The notes below the pieces were generated by a model. The model did no database searches. It worked only from the letters and a program-made list of their open reading frames with translations, and was not told where the DNA came from. Of a DNA stretch of 32,683 nt, positions 10,293-19,815 are shown in pieces. A program made the position numbers and the translations under genes. Origin of the DNA: Eubacteriales bacterium (lineage in GTDB: Bacteria > Bacillota > Clostridia > Saccharofermentanales > UBA5734); contig JAQVJP010000017.1 of assembly GCA_028695145.1 (NCBI GenBank), positions 1-32,683 on the forward strand, given 5' to 3'. The first letter of the stretch is position 1, and each line of letters opens with the position of its first letter.

Positions 10293-11339
10293 TTATGAGA
10301 ATATATTCATAACACTGGAACGTTCCACCAACTTTATTCCCAATTCGAGTAATCTGCTGCATTCTTCCTTTGACTGCGCGGAAGCAAGCAATTCACGCAC
10401 AGCAGCCACTCCAAGTTCCTGCTTAAAAACATGAATCGTGGACAGTGCAGGACTGACCGCCTGACAAATTGGTGTATTATCCATGGCAATAATCGATACA
10501 TCAAATGGTACCTGTATTGATTTTTCCTGAAGCGCACGTACAGCACCAGCAGCGATCATGTCATTGGCCGCGAAAAAAGCTGTGGGCAGTGGTTTATTCT
10601 GCGCAAGCCAGCCAAGCATATCTCTATGACTGCCTTTTACTGTAGGTTCAACACTGACTACCCATTCCGGTCTGATCGGCAGACCTGCCTGAGACAGTGC
10701 TTCTCGATAGCCGAGCCAACGATAATGCATATTATTGAATTCAGTGCTGCTGTTTATAATACCAATCTGCTGATGACCGTTAGCAATCAAGTGTTTTACA
10801 GCAGTATATCCGGCTTCTGTATTGTTGATTGTCACGCTGCTCAGATTACTTCCGCGAAAATAACTATCAAGAAGTATCAAAGGTGCCTGGGCACTTACGA
10901 GCAGCTCAAGATCATCAGAGCTCATTTCCGTGGCCAAAATTATATTTGCGACCTGCTTGTCTTCAAGCAGTTGTTTCATACGCCTGCGGTCATCCTGTTC
11001 ACGACCCATGATCTGAGCAAACAGCAATTCAAACCCCTGTCTGTTGCATTCATTTTCAATTCCGTTCAATAATTCGGCAAAAAACGGGGTATCCTGGACA
11101 ACAAGACCATGACGCCTGAATTTAATCACTCTAATCGCTCTGATATCTCTAAGCGGGCGATTAAGCGTACTCTTTTGATTATGCTCAAAATAGCCAAGCT
11201 CTCTGGCTATAGTTAAAACCTGTCGACTTGTCTCCTCGTTGACACCACGCTTGTTATTTAGCGCATTGGAAACAGTAGCAAGTGACACTCCCGCCAGATC
11301 CGCTATTTTTTTAATTGTTGGTTTATTCTTCTTTTCCAT
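10293..11339 (-). CDS. LacI-family transcriptional regulator
   Basis: A LacI-type helix-turn-helix occupies about residues 9-30 (TIKKIADLAGVSLATVSNAL). A periplasmic-binding-protein-like sensor domain follows, with VVQDTPFFAELLNGIE, ANDMIAAGAVRAL and DVSIIAMDNTPICQ. At 348 residues the length is normal. The hinge between the two domains is unusual: the standard A-x-x-L-R hinge-helix pattern is replaced by STLNRPLRDIRA. A V-x-D-T-P-F-F version of the sensor start is one I recall from regulators near pentose/xylan genes (memory, unverified). It lies just after the transketolase/kinase/isomerase operon on the same strand, separated by a terminator and its own promoter, so it is the natural local repressor. 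AAGGG lies 7 bases before the ATG. Confidence 0.92.
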   Translation of the reverse strand: MEKKNKPTIKKIADLAGVSLATVSNALNNKRGVNEETSRQVLTIARELGYFEHNQKSTLNRPLRDIRAIRVIKFRRHGLVVQDTPFFAELLNGIENECNRQGFELLFAQIMGREQDDRRRMKQLLEDKQVANIILATEMSSDDLELLVSAQAPLILLDSYFRGSNLSSVTINNTEAGYTAVKHLIANGHQQIGIINSSTEFNNMHYRWLGYREALSQAGLPIRPEWVVSVEPTVKGSHRDMLGWLAQNKPLPTAFFAANDMIAAGAVRALQEKSIQVPFDVSIIAMDNTPICQAVSPALSTIHVFKQELGVAAVRELLASAQSKEECSRLLELGIKLVERSSVMNIFS

Positions 11340-11406
11340 GCCGGCTGCCCTTCTGTTTTATTGAATTAGAGCTCAAATCGAGAGCTTCTACCAGATTTCT
11401 ATAGTC

Positions 11407-11435
11407 ATTATAATAATCTTGAGTCTGTTTGTCAG
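11407..11435 (-). promoter_or_regulatory. Sigma-70-type promoter of the lacI-family gene
   Basis: On the minus strand CTGACA (11430-11435) and TATAAT (11407-11412) have a 17-base spacer, about 70 bases before the start codon. No copy of the AACG-A-CGTT element of the sugar operon promoter is seen here, so autoregulation through the same site is not supported. Confidence 0.65.
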
Positions 11436-11460
11436 GATTTTTCCTCAGATTAACTTCTAT

Positions 11461-11497
11461 AAAAAAACCGGGAAAAGACTGTGGCCTCTTCCCGGCT
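11461..11497 (-). terminator. Rho-independent terminator after the isomerase gene
   Basis: On the minus strand a GC-rich stem (CCGGGAA pairing with TTCCCGG, extended by a bulged AGA/TCT) is followed by seven T residues at 11467-11461. It separates the sugar operon from the lacI-family gene. Confidence 0.8.
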
Positions 11498-11515
11498 TTT
11501 CTTATTGCCTATGTA

Positions 11516-12919
11516 TCAGCTGTGGCGGTAAACGTCCCAGCCAAGATACTTGCCAATAGCTTCTTCAAGCACATCAGCGCAGCTGGATTGGCTAATCGCG
11601 ATATGATGCTCGAAGCCCTGCTCACATATGTACTTCATAAGACCATTCATGTTATCAACCTTACAAACAGTTATGCCGCCAAAAGTATCGAGCGGATCAT
11701 CGGTGAACTCGCCTTCACCAACATAACAACGAATTTTTCCTTCGCAGTCATCCGTAGAAATGCGCAGATAAGTCATAGGTCCCGGTGCGACTCGGCCCTT
11801 GCAGGCACCGAAGCAATTTTCAACACCGAGAGTTGTTGAGAGGACATCAAGATAACCGATTTCGGGGGTTTTCTCGAAGACACAGCTCGGGAAATTGGAA
11901 CAATGGACATTGATGCACTTGTCTGGTTCGCTGCCATAATTGTTATTCCAGTCCTGCAGCATCGGAGGTACACCGCCTGCCAGCAGCAGAGCCTGCATGC
12001 TGAGCGCGCCCATAACATCCATCTCGCAAGCACTTGGTTTACCGCGCATTCCCATCATGCTCATAGGCAGACAAGTAGCTACACCATAATCAGTTTCAAC
12101 TGCGTCCCAGCACTGAACAGCAGAAGACGTACATTCATTATCATCGACATATGATTCTATAGCTATGCTGAGACGAGCTTCATGATCGATCTGCTCAGGA
12201 GAAGCATCATTACTGACATTACCATATTCTTTAATCTCAGCAATCTTCGCGTCAATCAGTGATTGATCATTGATGCTGCGAGCATGATGCAGGATCATTG
12301 ACATATCAACAACTGAGACGTTGATACCTGAACGCTGCAATAGTTTCTCACTGTAACGTACAGTATGGAAAGCGTCAGGTCTGGCACCAATCGCAGCTAT
12401 GCGGGCATTTGTCAGACCTTTTACCACATCACAGACTGAAGCGAATTTCTTAACATCGGCTTCAAACTCTGGACTATTTACTTGACAGGTATGTTTCTCA
12501 GTCAGAGAGAATTTTATACCACATTGGCGGAAATTGTTACAAACCGATATTTTACCGCAAAAAGCATCACGGCGATTTGCCAGATCAAGTTTATCGAGTT
12601 GATCATTACTGGCTTGAATCAGTATCGGCACATTGAGCTTAGCTTGAGTGATAACCTCAGTTACACTTAGTTCGTCTCCGAAGTTCGGCATGCTGATAAT
12701 GATTCCATCAATTTTCGCCGCGTTTTCACGAAACAGCCGCGCGCATTTACGAGCATCCTGAATAGTTTCAACACCGCCGCCCTTTGTTTCATTCTCCGTC
12801 AGCACAACACTGTCATGTCCCCATTGCGCGAGACAGTCTACCAACTCTTTACGACCGGCAGCAACTACATGATCCGGGAAAAATGACCTGTTACATACGA
12901 TCAATCCAAAAGTAGCCAT
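11516..12919 (-). CDS. L-fucose/L-arabinose isomerase-family protein, substrate unknown
   Basis: This 467-residue protein belongs to the FucI/AraA-like aldose-ketose isomerase superfamily. The N-terminal half has the alternating beta/alpha pattern. The C-terminal half has the family's conserved positions: E299 in SACEMDV, D323 in LQDWNNNYG and H339 in VHCSNFP. These are probable Mn2+ ligands by pattern, an assignment made without an alignment. The protein is notably rich in cysteine, fitting an anaerobe. It is the last gene of the operon after the kinase (62-base gap), with GAGG 7 bases before the ATG. It is shorter than classical FucI (about 590), matching the shorter FucI-like group often left as L-fucose isomerase-related. 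The substrate could be a pentose, a tetrose or a deoxy sugar. Confidence 0.85.
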   Translation of the reverse strand: MATFGLIVCNRSFFPDHVVAAGRKELVDCLAQWGHDSVVLTENETKGGGVETIQDARKCARLFRENAAKIDGIIISMPNFGDELSVTEVITQAKLNVPILIQASNDQLDKLDLANRRDAFCGKISVCNNFRQCGIKFSLTEKHTCQVNSPEFEADVKKFASVCDVVKGLTNARIAAIGARPDAFHTVRYSEKLLQRSGINVSVVDMSMILHHARSINDQSLIDAKIAEIKEYGNVSNDASPEQIDHEARLSIAIESYVDDNECTSSAVQCWDAVETDYGVATCLPMSMMGMRGKPSACEMDVMGALSMQALLLAGGVPPMLQDWNNNYGSEPDKCINVHCSNFPSCVFEKTPEIGYLDVLSTTLGVENCFGACKGRVAPGPMTYLRISTDDCEGKIRCYVGEGEFTDDPLDTFGGITVCKVDNMNGLMKYICEQGFEHHIAISQSSCADVLEEAIGKYLGWDVYRHS

Positions 12920-12981
12920 AATTTTACCTCTTTTCTCTAATGTTTTTCTTATCTTCTTAACTGAATACAGTTTAAACTATT

Positions 12982-14445
12982 TCATTTGAGCATCACTCTG
13001 CGAACAGCTTCTTTCCAGCCGTCAGTCAATTTTTCAGACTGCTCTCGTGTCAATGAAGGTCTATAAACTTTTCCCGATTGCTGCCAGGCAGCGATGCTCT
13101 CCTGATTTTTGAAGAAACCAAGTGTCAGTCCACACATATAGGCAGCACCCAATGCTGAAATCTCCTGAGCTATACTACATCTTACTGGGCAACCAAGGAG
13201 ATCGGATTGAAACTGCATAAGCACAGTACTTCTGGTTGGTCCACCATCAACTCGCAGTTCAGCGATACTTACACCCATCGCTTCAACTACAGCGTGATTC
13301 TGATAAGCAATTGATTCAAGTGCCGCTCGGGAAATATGACGACGCGTGCAGCCTCTTGACATACCAACTATAGCGCCTCTGGCATCACTATCAAAATAAG
13401 GAGCTCCAAGTCCGGAAAAAGCCGGAACAAGGTAAACACCTTCAGTTGAGCTGATTCCTTCAGCAAGCTCGTCAATTTCCTGTGGACTCGATACGAGTTC
13501 GAGTTCATTGATCAACCAGTTAAGAGTATCGCCTGAACTGGTAACATTACCTTCAAGCACATAGTTGATCTCACCACGCCACCCCCAAGCAAGCGAAGCA
13601 GCAATACCTACAGGTGGTTTTGCATAAGAGCTACCGTTGTTAAGCATGATGCTCGAACCTGTACCGTAAGTTGCTTTTGCCATACCAGGCTTCAGACACC
13701 CCTGGCCGAAGAGAGCAGCATGCGAATCACCCATAACGCCAGCAATCGGCAGGCGACGGCCAAACAGTTTCTCTAACGTATTACCAAAAACCGCGTCAGA
13801 AAATTCAATCTGCGGCAGACAACTTAACGGAATATCAAACAACTCACAGATCTCCTGATCCCAGGTAAGTGTATGCAGATTAAACAACTGTGTTCGACTG
13901 GCGTTAGAGTAGTCTGTTTTAAAACTCTCACCACCGGTCAGGCGAAATACGAGATATGCGTCAACTGTCCCGATACAGGCATCTCCGGTTAAGGCTTTTT
14001 GCTTAAGACCGGGAACATGCTGAAGCAGCCAGGCGGCTTTTGCAGCCGGATAATAAGCTGACAACTGAAGACCTGTTCTTGCCCTGATCATTTCTCCGTG
14101 TTCACTTAGATTCTCGCAAATACCGGCACCGCGCTGGCATTGCCAGACCACAGCGGGCGCAAGAGGTTTTCCCGTAGCTCGATCCCAGGCAACAGTTGTT
14201 TCCCGCTGATTTGAAATCGCGATTCCATTTATTTCATCAAGTGAAACTCCTGCCTGCTCCGGTAATCTGGAGATTAGCTTCACAACATTCTGCCATATTT
14301 CCTCGGCATCGTGTTCAACCCATCCGGGCGCCGGATAGTATTGTTTATGGTTGATCGAGTCTTTTGCCGTGATAAATCCTTGTTCATCCGACAGGAGAGC
14401 TTTTGTACCGGCTGTACTCTGATCAATAGCCAAAATAAACGACAT
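12982..14445 (-). CDS. FGGY carbohydrate kinase, glycerol-kinase-like
   Basis: This 488-residue ATP-dependent sugar/polyol kinase has the ASKHA fold. The phosphate-1 loop DQSTAGTK lies at residues 8-15, and NASRTQLFNL, GDSHAALFGQ (from 239), TYGTGSS and FSGLGAPYFD follow. The positions contacting glycerol in E. coli GlpK (Arg83, Glu84, Tyr135, Asp245) have apparent counterparts R81, E82, Y131 and D240, so it is closer to glycerol kinase than to xylulokinase. However, the loop after the Tyr reads YYPAAK instead of the GlpK-type FSGTK, so a different small polyol or ketose is possible. The start is the ATG at 14445, with GAGG 8 bases upstream, 10 bases after the previous stop; the longer open frame would overlap tktC. 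No glycerol facilitator or GlpD neighbour exists, which argues against routine glycerol use. Confidence 0.88.
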   Translation of the reverse strand: MSFILAIDQSTAGTKALLSDEQGFITAKDSINHKQYYPAPGWVEHDAEEIWQNVVKLISRLPEQAGVSLDEINGIAISNQRETTVAWDRATGKPLAPAVVWQCQRGAGICENLSEHGEMIRARTGLQLSAYYPAAKAAWLLQHVPGLKQKALTGDACIGTVDAYLVFRLTGGESFKTDYSNASRTQLFNLHTLTWDQEICELFDIPLSCLPQIEFSDAVFGNTLEKLFGRRLPIAGVMGDSHAALFGQGCLKPGMAKATYGTGSSIMLNNGSSYAKPPVGIAASLAWGWRGEINYVLEGNVTSSGDTLNWLINELELVSSPQEIDELAEGISSTEGVYLVPAFSGLGAPYFDSDARGAIVGMSRGCTRRHISRAALESIAYQNHAVVEAMGVSIAELRVDGGPTRSTVLMQFQSDLLGCPVRCSIAQEISALGAAYMCGLTLGFFKNQESIAAWQQSGKVYRPSLTREQSEKLTDGWKEAVRRVMLK

Positions 14446-14455
14446 TATGCTTACC

Positions 14456-15409
14456 TCATCCCAGTTTTTTGAGCAGCAGCTCAGCCTGCTCGGCAATATT
14501 ATCGGCCGTAATGCCATAATGACGGAAAACCTCAGGACTTGATCCTGTCACGATATTTTCATTAGGCAGAGCGATTTTCTTGATCATCTTCGGATTATGC
14601 TCAGAAAGAAGAGAAGCGACAAGACTACCCATTCCGCCGTTAACACTATGTTCTTCAACAGTTACAACCGCCTTACAGCCTGCAGCAACTCGCAAAATTG
14701 TCTCTTCATCAAGTGGCATCAGCGTATGCAAATCAACTACTGACGCGGAAATACCGGCTGCAGCTAATTTTTTTCCTGCGTGCCAGGCATGCCAGACTGT
14801 TTCGCCACAAGCAAATATAGCGACATCGCTTCCCTGCATCAGCTCGATCGCTTCGCCAATTTTGAAGTCAGGAGCAAGCTTACTCTCGCCTTCCGGGCCG
14901 TATAAATCCGGCACTGCTCCTCTGCCCATTCTCACATAAACAGGTCCTTCATGAACTGTAAGAGCTGCGGTCATCTGTTTTGTTTGCCAAGCGTCAGCAG
15001 GCAGTATAACAGTTAAGCCGGGAACAGCAGTCATCGTAGCGATATCCTGTAAACTATGATGACTTGTGCCGAGAGCACCATAACTGACACCGCCGGAAAT
15101 ACCAATAACCTTGACATTACTGTTTGAGTACGCGACATCTACCTTAACTTGTTCAGCACTACGCATGGAGTAGAAGCAGGCCGGGCCGGCAACAAATGGT
15201 TTAAGACCGGCATTAGCCAGGCCGGCAGCCATACCGACGCAATTCTGTTCAGCAATACCAACCTCGATAAACTGCTCTGGCAGCTCTGCGGCGAAATCAC
15301 CAAGCATAACTGAACCTCGAGAGTCTGTACATAAAACAACGACATTTTTATCATTCTTGGCTTGAGCAAGTACTTCCTGTGAAAAAGCCTGTCTGCAAGG
15401 GATACTCAT
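14456..15409 (-). CDS. Split transketolase, C-terminal subunit
   Basis: This 317-residue protein corresponds to the pyrimidine-binding and C-terminal domains of transketolase. The catalytic Glu lies in the GIAEQN motif (about residue 53 on), followed by GPACFYSMRSAEQ and GTSHHSLQDIA. The C-terminal regulatory domain runs from about residue 190 (VAIFACGE, VDLHTLMPLD). It must pair with the N-terminal subunit encoded just upstream; the start overlaps that gene's stop as ATGA, so translation is coupled. Split transketolases are common in Firmicutes, Thermotogae and Archaea. In this operon it may act on a product of the isomerase and kinase rather than in the general pentose phosphate pathway. 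Confidence 0.93.
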   Translation of the reverse strand: MSIPCRQAFSQEVLAQAKNDKNVVVLCTDSRGSVMLGDFAAELPEQFIEVGIAEQNCVGMAAGLANAGLKPFVAGPACFYSMRSAEQVKVDVAYSNSNVKVIGISGGVSYGALGTSHHSLQDIATMTAVPGLTVILPADAWQTKQMTAALTVHEGPVYVRMGRGAVPDLYGPEGESKLAPDFKIGEAIELMQGSDVAIFACGETVWHAWHAGKKLAAAGISASVVDLHTLMPLDEETILRVAAGCKAVVTVEEHSVNGGMGSLVASLLSEHNPKMIKKIALPNENIVTGSSPEVFRHYGITADNIAEQAELLLKKLG

Positions 15410-16230
15410 TTTCCCACCTCCGTTTTATCTAAATCGGCAAGAGCCTGAGCGAGTTGTTCATCACTTGGCACTCCATGATGCCACTTGGCAACATTTTCCA
15501 TAAACGAAACGCCTTTGCCTTTTGTAGTGTTGGCAATGATCATATGTGGTTTGCCATTTGTCTGCGGGAAACTCTTCATCAAACTGATCAAGCCTTCAAT
15601 ATCATGACCATCAGCCTCAAAAACCTGCCAGCCAAAAGCTTCCCATTTGGCCTTGAGCTGTTCAAGCTTCATGACATCCTCTGTAGATCCACTGATCTGA
15701 AGACCATTACGATCAATTATCGCTGTGAGATTATCAAGCTCATAATTAGCAGCAGCCATAGCACCTTCCCAGACGCTGCCCTCAGCCAGCTCCCCGTCTC
15801 CCATAAGAACATAAGTCTTATAAGCACGGCCGCTTTTCTTAGCACCAAGCGCCATGCCAACGGCCGCCGGCAGACCATGGCCAAGCGCTCCGGAGCATAT
15901 TTCGATTCCTGGGACTTTGTTTGTTGGATGCCCAATAAGACGCGAACCGTATTTGCTAAAAGTCATCAGTTCTGCCTTCGGGAAGAAGCCAAGATCCGCA
16001 AGAATACAAAGGTAGCCTTCCACAGAGTGACCTTTGCTCAATACAAATCTGTCCCGATCGGCCCATTTAGGTTCAGATGGTTTAATATTCATGATTCCAT
16101 AATGCAGAGCAACAAGAATATCCGTACTTGAGAGAGCTCCACCGGTGTGCCCGGTTTTAGCCTCATAAATCATGTTCAGAAGTTCTTTGCGCCGTTCTGT
16201 AGCAATTCTTCTGTAATTTGTAGTAGACAT
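15406..16230 (-). CDS. Split transketolase, N-terminal (thiamine diphosphate-binding) subunit
   Basis: This 274-residue protein is the N-terminal half of transketolase. The ThDP/Mg site motif starts at GDGELAEGSVWEGAM and ends at DRNGLQ. SKGHSVEGYLC near residue 70 and GALGHGLPAAVGMALGAK near 120 are family hallmarks. It moves two-carbon ketol units from ketoses to aldoses once assembled with the C-terminal subunit. It is the first gene of the sugar operon, with AGGAGG 5 bases before the ATG and a near-consensus promoter about 50 bases upstream. Why the genes are split and which sugars are used cannot be read from sequence. Confidence 0.94.
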   Translation of the reverse strand: MSTTNYRRIATERRKELLNMIYEAKTGHTGGALSSTDILVALHYGIMNIKPSEPKWADRDRFVLSKGHSVEGYLCILADLGFFPKAELMTFSKYGSRLIGHPTNKVPGIEICSGALGHGLPAAVGMALGAKKSGRAYKTYVLMGDGELAEGSVWEGAMAAANYELDNLTAIIDRNGLQISGSTEDVMKLEQLKAKWEAFGWQVFEADGHDIEGLISLMKSFPQTNGKPHMIIANTTKGKGVSFMENVAKWHHGVPSDEQLAQALADLDKTEVGK

Positions 16231-16278: not shown

Positions 16279-16307
16279 ATCATAATTAAACGACGTTAAA
16301 ATGTCAA
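16279..16307 (-). promoter_or_regulatory. Promoter of the transketolase/kinase/isomerase operon with candidate LacI-family operator
   Basis: On the minus strand TTGACA (16302-16307) and TATGAT (16279-16284) have a 17-base spacer. The 9-base palindrome AACG-A-CGTT (16289-16297) is centred at 16293, the exact middle of the spacer, and the flanking bases add partial symmetry. A strong promoter with a CG-containing palindrome between its boxes is a typical LacI-family repression layout. The link to the nearby regulator is inferred. Confidence 0.7.
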
Positions 16308-16447: not shown

Positions 16448-17293
16448 TCAGGCAAAAGCTTCTGCCAGGGCTTGTTTCATAACCTCGATAGAAGGTTCTG
16501 CACCAGTCCAGAGTTTATAAGCTATTGCTCCTTGATAGACCAGCATTGCAAGTCCATCATAGATAACAGCACCGCGCTTTTGAGCTTCCTTCAGAAATGG
16601 TGTTATGGCCGGATTAGGTATGATATCTTGAACAATCATACCCGGCTTAATATCATCAAGTCTGATATCCGGATAATTTTTATCAGGATATAAGCCTACG
16701 CTTGTAGCGTTTATAAGAATATCACAGGCAGGGATTCTGACACCATCAGCCCATGGAATAAAATCTGCCTGACAATCTGTTTTCTTATTTAGCAAATCAC
16801 GAAGTGATTGACCCCTATCAGCATTTCTGTTAATAATCGATATCGATGAACACCCGGCAAGCGCACTCTCTACAGCTACTGCCCGGCCGGCTCCACCGGC
16901 CCCAAGTATCACAAGATGTTTACCCTTAAGATCAATTCCTCTCTGCTTCATTCCCTCAACAAAACCTTTGCCATCGGTATTGGTACCAATAAGCTTATCC
17001 TCATCACGATAGACAGTATTAACAGCACCTATCAATTCTGCGCTCTCAGTAATTTCATCAAGCAAAGGAATAATCGCAGTCTTATGCGGAATCGTCAGAT
17101 TAATACCATCGAAATTCATTGCCCTCATACCTTGGACAGCTGCAGGCAAATCTTCAGGTTTTACCAACAATGTCAAATAGCGCCAGTCAAGTCCTGCAGC
17201 CTGAAAAGCAGCTTCCTGCATAACAATCGTCGGGTTTTCATCTACCGGATAACCGAACACTCCGGTCAATTTAGATCTGAAACTCTTAACCAT
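16448..17293 (-). CDS. Shikimate dehydrogenase family protein with atypical substrate motif
   Basis: This 281-residue protein has the AroE fold: catalytic Lys71 in NLTIPHK, Asp107 in NTDGKGF, Asn92 in GAVNT and the dinucleotide loop GAGGAG at 131-136. Typical AroE carries a Ser-x-Ser-Pro just after the first strand to bind the shikimate carboxylate; here the place reads VDENPT (about 17-22). I recall a group of AroE-like oxidoreductases with this version in Firmicutes and Actinobacteria whose substrate is not clearly shikimate. It is the last gene of the six-gene operon. Its ATG (17293) overlaps the ATPase stop by one base (TGATG), with AGGAGG 8 bases upstream. It may still be the biosynthetic enzyme, as no other aro gene is visible to compare. 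Confidence 0.85.
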   Translation of the reverse strand: MVKSFRSKLTGVFGYPVDENPTIVMQEAAFQAAGLDWRYLTLLVKPEDLPAAVQGMRAMNFDGINLTIPHKTAIIPLLDEITESAELIGAVNTVYRDEDKLIGTNTDGKGFVEGMKQRGIDLKGKHLVILGAGGAGRAVAVESALAGCSSISIINRNADRGQSLRDLLNKKTDCQADFIPWADGVRIPACDILINATSVGLYPDKNYPDIRLDDIKPGMIVQDIIPNPAITPFLKEAQKRGAVIYDGLAMLVYQGAIAYKLWTGAEPSIEVMKQALAEAFA

Positions 17294-18006
17294 CAAGCGT
17301 TACCTCCTGTTTTTGCCACATATTTATCTACATCAAGATTAATTCTGCCATCTTTGATTTCCAGAATTCGATCAGCTTTTTCCGCGATTCTCTGATCATG
17401 CGTGATAATAATAAAAGTTGATTTGATTTCCTGATTTATTTCCCGCAGCAAAGTGTAAATTGATTCTGTAGTTTGTGAATCAAGATTGCCAGTAGGTTCA
17501 TCTCCGAGAATAATTTTAGGTTCGTTTATAAGGCTGCGCGCAATCGCGGTCCTCTGTTGTTGTCCACCGGAGAGATCAGTGGCCAGATTGCTCTTTACGC
17601 GTGATAAACCGACAAGGTCTATCAACTCAAGCGCCCGCTTCTTATCACGATCGTCAATTCTACCCTTGCGAATCAAAGCAGGCATCAGAACATTCTCCAG
17701 AACAGTAAATTCCGGCAGCAGATAGTGAAATTGAAAAATAAAACCGATTGTCTGATTCCTAAGCTCAGCCAGCTGATCTTTTGTCATGCTTGCGGTTTTT
17801 GTGCCATTTATGACTACTTCGCCGCTGGTCGGCCTGTCAAGCGTGCCCATAATATTCATTAGAGTAGACTTGCCGCTACCTGACTCACCAATAACTGCGT
17901 TAAATGAACCAGCTTCAAAGGCAAGATCAATATCAAAGAGAACCTGCGTCTTGATTTTCTCACCATAAACCTTATTAATACCTGATAATTTTAACAACTC
18001 AGCCAT
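17293..18006 (-). CDS. ABC transporter ATP-binding protein, LolD/MacB family
   Basis: This 237-residue ATPase shows Walker A GESGSGKS at residues 40-47, the Q-loop region, LSGGQQQR as the signature and LGDEPTGNLD as Walker B with its catalytic Glu. The MNIMGTLDRPTSGEV stretch after Walker A is typical of the LolD/MacB/FtsE group, which drives mechanical movement of an FtsX-type permease rather than classical uptake. The start overlaps the end of the permease gene by 8 bases, so the pair is certainly translated together. Its partner is the adjacent permease; the cargo is unknown. Confidence 0.94.
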   Translation of the reverse strand: MAELLKLSGINKVYGEKIKTQVLFDIDLAFEAGSFNAVIGESGSGKSTLMNIMGTLDRPTSGEVVINGTKTASMTKDQLAELRNQTIGFIFQFHYLLPEFTVLENVLMPALIRKGRIDDRDKKRALELIDLVGLSRVKSNLATDLSGGQQQRTAIARSLINEPKIILGDEPTGNLDSQTTESIYTLLREINQEIKSTFIIITHDQRIAEKADRILEIKDGRINLDVDKYVAKTGGNA

Positions 18007-19156
18007 TTTTAATCACCTCAATCGGATTAAGCTTAGAAGATTTGCGTGCCGGTATGAACGCGGCAAGTGTCGCGGCAATGATCGCTATAAACATCGACAC
18101 AAAGACAAATACCGGATCAAAATAAAAAGGTACCAGCGATGACCCATCAGGATTTTTTACAAACACGGAAAAAGACCAGTTCAGCAGAAGCCCGAGGCCG
18201 GTGCCTATTATTGAGCCAACAGTACCAAGAATCAATCCCTGTGCCAGAAAAATCCAGCTGGCCGCACGATCTTTTATACCCATCGCCTTAAGAATTCCGA
18301 GCTGTCGCGATTTCTGAACTACCGAAATAGCCAAAACTGAGCTTATACCGAGAAGAACAGCCAACAGCACAAAAACCTGTATCATATAGCTGGAGGCAGA
18401 TTGACCTGACAGTCCACTCAGAAGCGACGCGTTTTGATCCTTCCAGTTTGTTATTTTCTGCTCTTCTGATAATAAACCAGACCAGCCAGCAGCTATTGTA
18501 TCTGCCGAGAAGACGTCTTCTATCTGTATTTCAATACTGCTCAGCTGATTATCAGCAGAAAAGAGCTCCTGTACAGCTATAAGATCTGATATCGCCCATG
18601 ATTCATTGATAGAAGATACTTGTAAATCAAATATTCCAGAAACTGTTAACTCGCTTGATTTACCTTCAGGATTAACAGCGGTTATCATATCGCCCGGTTC
18701 AATTCCGGTTTCCGCGGCAAGTGCTGAACCAAGTAAAATTTCTGAAGAATTTGCGGGCATATCTCCTTCGACAAGTGATTCACTGAAACGATAGATACTA
18801 TCTGCCTGATCAAGCTCGAAACCACGAAATAGAAGAGGCCACGTCTCGTCTTCGTACACCATAAACCCGGAATTACTATACGATACAGCTAATTTATCAG
18901 CTTGTTCATCTGCAGTAAGCTGAATGATAAGATCATCATCGCGTTCAAAATAACGTGCGCTGCCGGCAGGCTCAACCGTAATGTGGGAAGATCGTCCAAT
19001 AGTATTGTCAACAAGAGAGCGCTGTAGACCATCGATCAGCGAGCCAATGAATATCTGTACAGAAACGCCGATTGTTATTCCAAGCAAAATAAGTATAGTC
19101 TGTCCACGGCTTGACTTGAGAAACCGCCAGGCAATACGAAACGATAAACCGCTCAT
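17999..19156 (-). CDS. FtsX/MacB-type ABC transporter permease
   Basis: This 385-residue membrane protein has the type VII ABC permease layout. TM1 is at about 17-40, followed by a large extracytoplasmic MacB-like domain (about 45-250), then three TM segments (about 255-282, 300-325 and 345-370). The cytoplasmic motif QKSRQLGILKAMG after TM2 and the closing PARKSSKLNPIEVI are characteristic. With the LolD-type ATPase it should form a mechanotransmission complex that extrudes or releases lipids, peptides or lipoproteins. I start at the ATG at 19156 (AGGAGG 7 bases upstream); the frame extends only by a TTG. It sits 2 bases after the B12-domain gene's stop. A single permease gene implies a homodimer. 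Confidence 0.92.
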   Translation of the reverse strand: MSGLSFRIAWRFLKSSRGQTILILLGITIGVSVQIFIGSLIDGLQRSLVDNTIGRSSHITVEPAGSARYFERDDDLIIQLTADEQADKLAVSYSNSGFMVYEDETWPLLFRGFELDQADSIYRFSESLVEGDMPANSSEILLGSALAAETGIEPGDMITAVNPEGKSSELTVSGIFDLQVSSINESWAISDLIAVQELFSADNQLSSIEIQIEDVFSADTIAAGWSGLLSEEQKITNWKDQNASLLSGLSGQSASSYMIQVFVLLAVLLGISSVLAISVVQKSRQLGILKAMGIKDRAASWIFLAQGLILGTVGSIIGTGLGLLLNWSFSVFVKNPDGSSLVPFYFDPVFVFVSMFIAIIAATLAAFIPARKSSKLNPIEVIKNG

Positions 19157-19158
19157 AA

Positions 19159-19815
19159 TCAAGCCTCCTCGTCATTTTTTATCTGAAGCAAATCTGACAA
19201 AATTCCGTCAACGCCAAGAGAAGCGCAGCTGTCCGGAGTACCGCTGCAGGCGCTGCCGCCGGCAAGCAGCTCCACAGGATAATCCAACTCAGATCTTATT
19301 CTTGTAACAGTTCTCTTGGCGGCAAAAAGGTTAAAAGAATTTGTGATGCTTATGACAACAGTTTGTGGCCTAAGCTGTTTAAGCGCGTTGATCAAAGTCA
19401 GAATAGGTGTGCGGGCTCCAAGATAATAGGTTTTATATCCGGCAATAGTATAAAAATCGAGCACCATACGTGCTCCCATATCGTGCTGTTCTTCTTCAGG
19501 ACAGAAAATCAAAACACTTCTCTGACTTCCGTTAGCAACTTCGGACGGTTTCTCATTTCTGGCTCGCAGAACATAGGGATAAGATGATTCAATTACAGCT
19601 CGTACTATTGCTGACTGCATATGCTCTCGCCAAATCATACTATCCTGCTCTTCTTCAGGAAAAACAAGTCGATTAAGGGCAGGTGTGAGTATTTCCAGAT
19701 ACAACTGTTCAATCCCTATTTCCTGTCTGTCAAGAGCAGTCAGGCACAACATAACAGCGGACTCTCTATCCAGATTATCGAGAGCCGCCGCAAATTCACT
19801 ATACAGTTTTTGCAT
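19159..19815 (-). CDS. Stand-alone cobalamin-binding-domain protein
   Basis: This 218-residue protein has two parts. Residues 1-90 are a helical cap like the B12-binding-2 domain, with a W62-R-E64-H65 motif near its end. Residues 98-210 are a Rossmann-like B12-binding domain with E109-x-H111-D-x-G114, where the His would be the lower cobalt ligand, then ITNSFN and AGGSACSG. The arrangement recalls the sensory halves of CarH/LitR photoreceptors and the corrinoid proteins of methyltransferases. There is no DNA-binding domain, and no methyltransferase gene is nearby. It lies inside the ABC-transporter operon, with AGGAGG 7 bases before the ATG. It may be a cobalamin- or light-responsive regulatory subunit or a corrinoid carrier; the role is open. 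Confidence 0.82.
   Translation of the reverse strand: MQKLYSEFAAALDNLDRESAVMLCLTALDRQEIGIEQLYLEILTPALNRLVFPEEEQDSMIWREHMQSAIVRAVIESSYPYVLRARNEKPSEVANGSQRSVLIFCPEEEQHDMGARMVLDFYTIAGYKTYYLGARTPILTLINALKQLRPQTVVISITNSFNLFAAKRTVTRIRSELDYPVELLAGGSACSGTPDSCASLGVDGILSDLLQIKNDEEA

Follow-up and report, generated by a model that had tools for sequence, protein, structure and literature searches.

D-Apiose, a branched sugar, occurs in plant cell walls and is the boron-binding sugar of pectin RG-II. Its degradation follows an established pathway in which apiose is converted to apulose, apulose to apulose 4-phosphate, and the latter to dihydroxyacetone phosphate (DHAP) and xylulose 5-phosphate (MetaCyc PWY-8089, D-apiose degradation I). 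Apulose 4-phosphate is a ketose and cutting it between C2 and C3 leaves DHAP, which is why an isomerase, a relative of glycerol kinase (GlpK) and a transketolase go together. Carter et al. reportedly described the reactions of the D-apiose pathway in 2018, with the enzymes tested biochemically. The genes aptA, aptB and aplK have been named in E. coli SE15, and strains of E. coli and E. fergusonii bearing the cluster grow on D-apiose, whereas K-12 does not (PMC13001218). The E. coli cluster is reported to lack apsI and has two SDR genes instead (PMC13001218). Clusters in Sodalis, Rahnella and Klebsiella encode AptA, AptB and AplK proteins about 78, 75 and 71% identical to those of E. coli, together with the same RbsABC-DUF2291 transporter.

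We analysed a stretch of 32,683 nucleotides (hereafter, the window) from a draft genome of 2.77 Mb in 223 contigs, and consider it very probable that it carries an AptAB/AplK-type operon for the use of D-apiose. The link from the window to apiose runs through the sequences of the E. coli SE15 cluster, and the module matches the D-apiose pathway by the clade of its transketolase, its active-site residues and its glycosidase neighbours. The first-pass annotation had seen no obvious known substrate and had left the choice open between a pentose and a tetrose; this evidence favours D-apiose instead.

The genes all lie on the minus strand. An AptA-like N-terminal transketolase subunit of 274 aa (TKN; 15406..16230; Pfam Transketolase_N, 157.7 bits) is encoded first, and its gene overlaps through ATGA that of a 317-aa AptB-like C-terminal subunit (TKC; 14456..15409; Transket_pyr and Transketolase_C). 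About 10 nt separate the latter from the gene of a 487-aa AplK-like (D-apulose) kinase from the GlpK branch of the FGGY family (12982..14445; FGGY_N/FGGY_C), and 62 nt separate this from the gene of a 467-aa aldose-ketose isomerase of the AraA/FucI fold, the proposed D-apiose isomerase (11516..12919; Fucose_iso_C). A LacI-family regulator gene (10293..11339; LacI and Peripla_BP_3 domains) follows, and then a PEPCK gene. A tight operon with a LacI gene had been proposed at first pass; all five reading frames and their couplings were found as described, except that the kinase start, given at 14517 in a longer mechanical reading frame, is corrected to the internal ATG at 14445.

The promoter-like element TTGACA-17 bp-TATGAT, read from the sequence (16279..16307, minus strand), contains in its spacer an imperfect palindrome, ATTTTAACGTCGTTTAATT, which is a weak candidate for the LacI operator and has no evident counterpart 5' of the operon in L057, a relative within the genus. 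A terminator-like hairpin with a T-run, also read from the sequence, occupies the gap between the isomerase and LacI genes (11461..11500, minus strand), so the LacI gene is probably transcribed separately from the operon. A similar hairpin is found at the matching place behind the isomerase gene in L058, from the same genus. Relatives of the regulator adjoin the module in L041, L043, L044, L186, Listeria and Monoglobus. Upstream of the operon (16448-19162), aroE (shikimate dehydrogenase) overlaps an ABC ATPase/permease pair, unusual company for this gene.

The locus resembles D-apiose degradation I (ApsI, AplK, AptA/AptB) in having an AptB-clade split transketolase, AplK-type kinase residues, one isomerase and its own regulator. 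It differs from the enteric apiose clusters in its regulator, which is of the LacI family rather than the SorC-like "sugar-binding transcriptional regulator", and in its uptake genes: no transporter adjoins the operon in the window, as the first-pass annotation had remarked, whereas RbsABC-DUF2291 is adjacent in the enteric clusters.

A cross-genome search for the four-gene set, proposed along with the idea of a single dedicated catabolic module built on isomerase-kinase-transketolase logic, recovered the set in many unrelated genomes and upholds that idea. The order TKN-TKC-kinase-isomerase recurs within the genus (L057, L058), in the window's family and order (L041, L044, L043), in other Clostridia (L017, L018, L083, L085) and in Thermotogota (L128, L129, L130, L134). 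Two family or order relatives on short contigs (L059, L042) keep it from TKC onwards, L081 keeps it with an apiosidase-like gene inserted between TKC and the kinase, and the transketolase is fused in L019. The module genes are also present, in differing orders, in Listeria (L061), Monoglobus (L062) and Sodalis, Rahnella and Klebsiella (L066-L068). Such a spread over Clostridia, Thermotogota, Listeria and Enterobacterales rules out chance adjacency. On a Streptomyces plasmid (L065: 3184-14907), AptA-, AptB- and AplK-like genes accompany a TIM-barrel protein in the place of the isomerase; the neighbours include GH28, GH95 and beta-L-arabinofuranosidase genes, and the region looks like a pectin locus.

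The N-terminal subunit in the window shares 46-49% identity with E. coli SE15 AptA and 61-64% with its Listeria homologue, the C-terminal subunit 36% with SE15 AptB and 50% with its Listeria homologue. A tree was computed from 43 C-parts, 18 from modules and 25 others, mostly from relatives of the window genome and including that genome's own second split transketolase. The 18 module C-parts, with those of the window and E. coli AptB among them, form one clade (support 100/99) outside which the other 25 fall, and every one of 200 bootstrap trees needs a single change of the module label. Where ordinary transketolases have GEDGxxHQ, the window subunit reads SYGALGTSHH; the module C-parts conform to [SA]YGxLxx[ST]H[HT], most of the other compared C-parts to GEDGxxHQ. 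The window N-terminal subunit has LGHG and WHHxVP and the module N-parts have LGHG and WHH, against LGQG and HG in the compared ordinary transketolases. We take these replacements to be the loss of D469 and H461 by canonical TktA numbering, two residues that touch the acceptor hydroxyl and phosphate. By transfer from that numbering, they speak for an unusual substrate, which fits a suggestion made at first pass, where comparison with TktA had been proposed.

The kinase, 42% identical to SE15 AplK, reads GDSH...GTGSS where GlpK reads GDQQ...GTGCF. GDS or ADS (the Listeria form) together with GTGxS was present in 24/24 module kinases, E. coli AplK among them, whereas all five GlpKs retained GDQQ and GTGxF and none had the serine replacements. 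The replaced positions are Q246 and F270 by E. coli GlpK numbering, next to glycerol, and two small serines would free space for the additional ketol arm that apulose carries. The kinase tree separates module kinases from GlpK at modest support (86/58). GDSx/GTGxS in the kinase and SYGxLxxxHH in the transketolase are sequence marks by which apiose enzymes may be told from glycerol kinases and ordinary transketolases.

A PDB sequence search with the window isomerase returned no relative. We therefore give its fold as judged from an AlphaFold model built with nine sequences (pLDDT 86.9), which aligned to L-arabinose isomerases over 430 residues (Z 31.3, rmsd 2.9, VIA-align), to 4r1o with a Foldseek E-value of 2.8e-24, and to D-arabinose/L-fucose isomerases with Z of 26-27. 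The model thus gives the protein the AraA/FucI fold over its full length. It is 44-45% identical to the isomerase in the apt clusters of Sodalis, Rahnella and Klebsiella. Two isomerase types occur in the modules, one in the window, enteric and Thermotoga loci and the other, only 26% identical, in Listeria and Monoglobus; the Listeria isomerase lies on a separate branch and is 26-28% identical to the window's. The label "beside AptAB" requires five changes in the isomerase tree, so the substrate cannot be named from the isomerase alone, and its subfamily, members of which also adjoin AraD, GH51 and XylB-like kinases, is not apiose-specific. What links it to apiose is its company, namely the enteric clusters whose AptA, AptB, AplK and transporter are close to those of E. 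coli; on these grounds we propose it as the D-apiose isomerase. A 36% identical paralogue is encoded elsewhere in the window genome (contig C16, L050: 3149-7129), in an operon with a class II aldolase and an FGGY kinase; this arrangement also occurs in L046 and L047, is conserved in the family and may represent another sugar route.

Seven lineages have PF13204 ("Apiosidase") genes next to the module, namely Listeria, Monoglobus, a Thermotoga, the genus of L017, L018 and L083, and L043, L044 and L081. For 7 of the 14 lineages, which are our own grouping, the chance of such adjacency was 2.6e-13 by a rough binomial with a 0.5% background, a figure derived from a frequency of roughly 0.5 PF13204 genes in each genome. 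Further PF13204 neighbours of module genes were found in L185 and L186, the latter with the order TKN, TKC, LacI (45% identical to the window's), apiosidase-like protein, kinase and a GH78-like gene. The L017 protein matches PDB 5msy/3kzs (2.6e-135) and 8t9w, named "Apiosidase". The window genome has two PF13204 genes, neither on the operon contig: one, on contig C111, lies with two GH43 genes and an esterase and belongs to the DUF5060/DUF5605 branch, and the other, on C97, lies with a binding protein and GH95.

As for uptake, contig C164 of the window genome encodes CUT1 permeases that share 51-52% identity with the ones adjoining the L017 module; taken together with a hydrolase, the identity to the L017 neighbours is 51-58%. 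This CUT1 system is a candidate transporter for the window genome. Contig C121 ends in 127 bases that overlap exactly with the beginning of C164, but the last reading frame of C121 looks chimeric, and the LacI gene there was therefore set aside as evidence. In the Sodalis cluster, the best PDB match of the binding protein is 5ibq (1.7e-128), which we take to have been solved with D-apiose.

The genes were assigned from homology, residues and context, and from these we infer the enzyme activities, the inducer and the transporter. Hydrolases encoded elsewhere in the genome would release apiose from pectin or glycosides, and a transporter encoded away from the operon would take it up. The isomerase would convert D-apiose to D-apulose, and the GlpK-like kinase would use ATP to phosphorylate one of the two CH2OH arms, giving D-apulose 4-phosphate. 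The two-subunit, thiamine diphosphate-dependent transketolase would then cut this between C2 and C3, leaving DHAP, and move the two-carbon ketol to glyceraldehyde 3-phosphate to form xylulose 5-phosphate. In the absence of apiose or a derivative, LacI probably keeps the operon repressed. The pathway is already known and its logic ordinary; the gain lies in linking the Thermotoga and Listeria clusters to apiose and in the residue marks. A module annotated in databases as glycerol kinase, fucose isomerase and transketolase thereby becomes, in Clostridia, Thermotogota and Listeria, an apiose pathway that can be tested.

The evidence points to D-apiose also for the matching Thermotoga and Listeria clusters. 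The Thermotoga locus (L128/L129) shares the TKN-TKC-kinase-isomerase order with the window and has LacI last, and differs in carrying RbsABC, rbsK, rbsD and, separating the isomerase gene from the LacI gene, one for an apiosidase-like protein. Its full order (rbsK, rbsD, rbsB, DUF, rbsA, rbsC, TKN, TKC, kinase, isomerase, apiosidase-like, LacI) presumably matches TM0960-TM0949, in agreement with the first-pass remark that Thermotoga has the same set beside a ribose-type ABC transporter. In Klebsiella aerogenes (L184: 4985-6506), the apiose kinase is annotated in the public record as "Uncharacterised pentose kinase TM0952", which links the E. coli-type and Thermotoga clusters. The Listeria cluster resembles the window in its four enzymes and LacI and has an apiosidase-family gene inside it, but differs in its isomerase type, PTS transporter and gene order. 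In Listeria monocytogenes (L061: 4004-13086) it comprises LacI, isomerase, TKN, TKC, a GlpK-like kinase, PTS and DUF4038 genes and, annotated as glycerol kinase and transketolase, is predicted to be an apiose or apioside cluster. A wider scenario, to which we give even odds, is that AraA/FucI-fold enzymes were recruited more than once as apiose isomerases, swapping with each other, with TIM-barrel proteins (Streptomyces) and with SDR pairs (E. coli) around a constant kinase-transketolase core, and that Thermotoga and Listeria are apiose eaters.

The isomerase leaves some room for a route for another aldopentose (ribose, arabinose or similar), in which isomerase and kinase would yield a pentulose phosphate and the transketolase would feed the pentose phosphate pathway. 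Its modelled fold is nearest to L-arabinose isomerase, and relatives 46-48% identical to it in Thermotogota (L131, L133, L135, L136) lie beside AraD or a GH51 arabinofuranosidase, names assigned here, like that of the aldolase, by reading the sequences; in the Thermotoga module, rbsK and rbsD are joined by a binding protein that matches PDB 2fn8, which we take to be the T. maritima ribose-binding protein. The relatives in arabinose context, however, use XylB-like kinases (25-27% identical to the window's) and lack the split transketolase, whereas both the transketolase and the kinase of the window carry the replacements common to apiose enzymes. The window genome also encodes a separate full-length transketolase, and another aldopentose would leave the apiosidase-family neighbours unexplained. 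We consider this route improbable for the window; the Thermotoga version may have a broader pentose role, given the ribose genes and ribose-binding-type protein in its cluster. The four Thermotogota relatives in arabinose context may serve as substitutes for AraA.

Ordinary glycerol or dihydroxyacetone metabolism, with the isomerase placed by chance, is very unlikely. The kinase does score above the GlpK subfamily cut-off (575 vs 498 bits), but it falls below that of the glycerol kinase equivalog TIGR01311 (552.3 vs 590.35 bits) and lacks the glycerol-contact residues of GlpK; a separate true GlpK is encoded on contig C180, and members of different phyla share the four-gene set. By sequence, the window kinase is not an ordinary glycerol kinase. 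Least likely of all is the sulfo-transketolase pathway for sulfoquinovose (SqvD, SqwGH), which likewise joins a related isomerase to a two-subunit transketolase that makes xylulose 5-phosphate by ketol transfer to glyceraldehyde 3-phosphate, and whose SftI (NF048012) is the sole NCBIfam match of the isomerase, but at 77.6 bits against a cut-off of 700, and which acts on a sulfonate without requiring a sugar kinase, has RAFDR in its SF transketolases where the window has R-S-F-S-R at the aligned places (read by eye from alignments), and finds no sulfonate genes in the window.

Further split transketolases came to light. The second one of the window genome (contig C126, L052: 141-5277) is of the ordinary GEDG type and lies directly behind a CUT1 ABC transporter consisting of a binding protein and two permeases. 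The split-transketolase C-parts of two relatives (L162 and L163, on G026:C18 and G023:C24) are each reported with one in-frame TGA.
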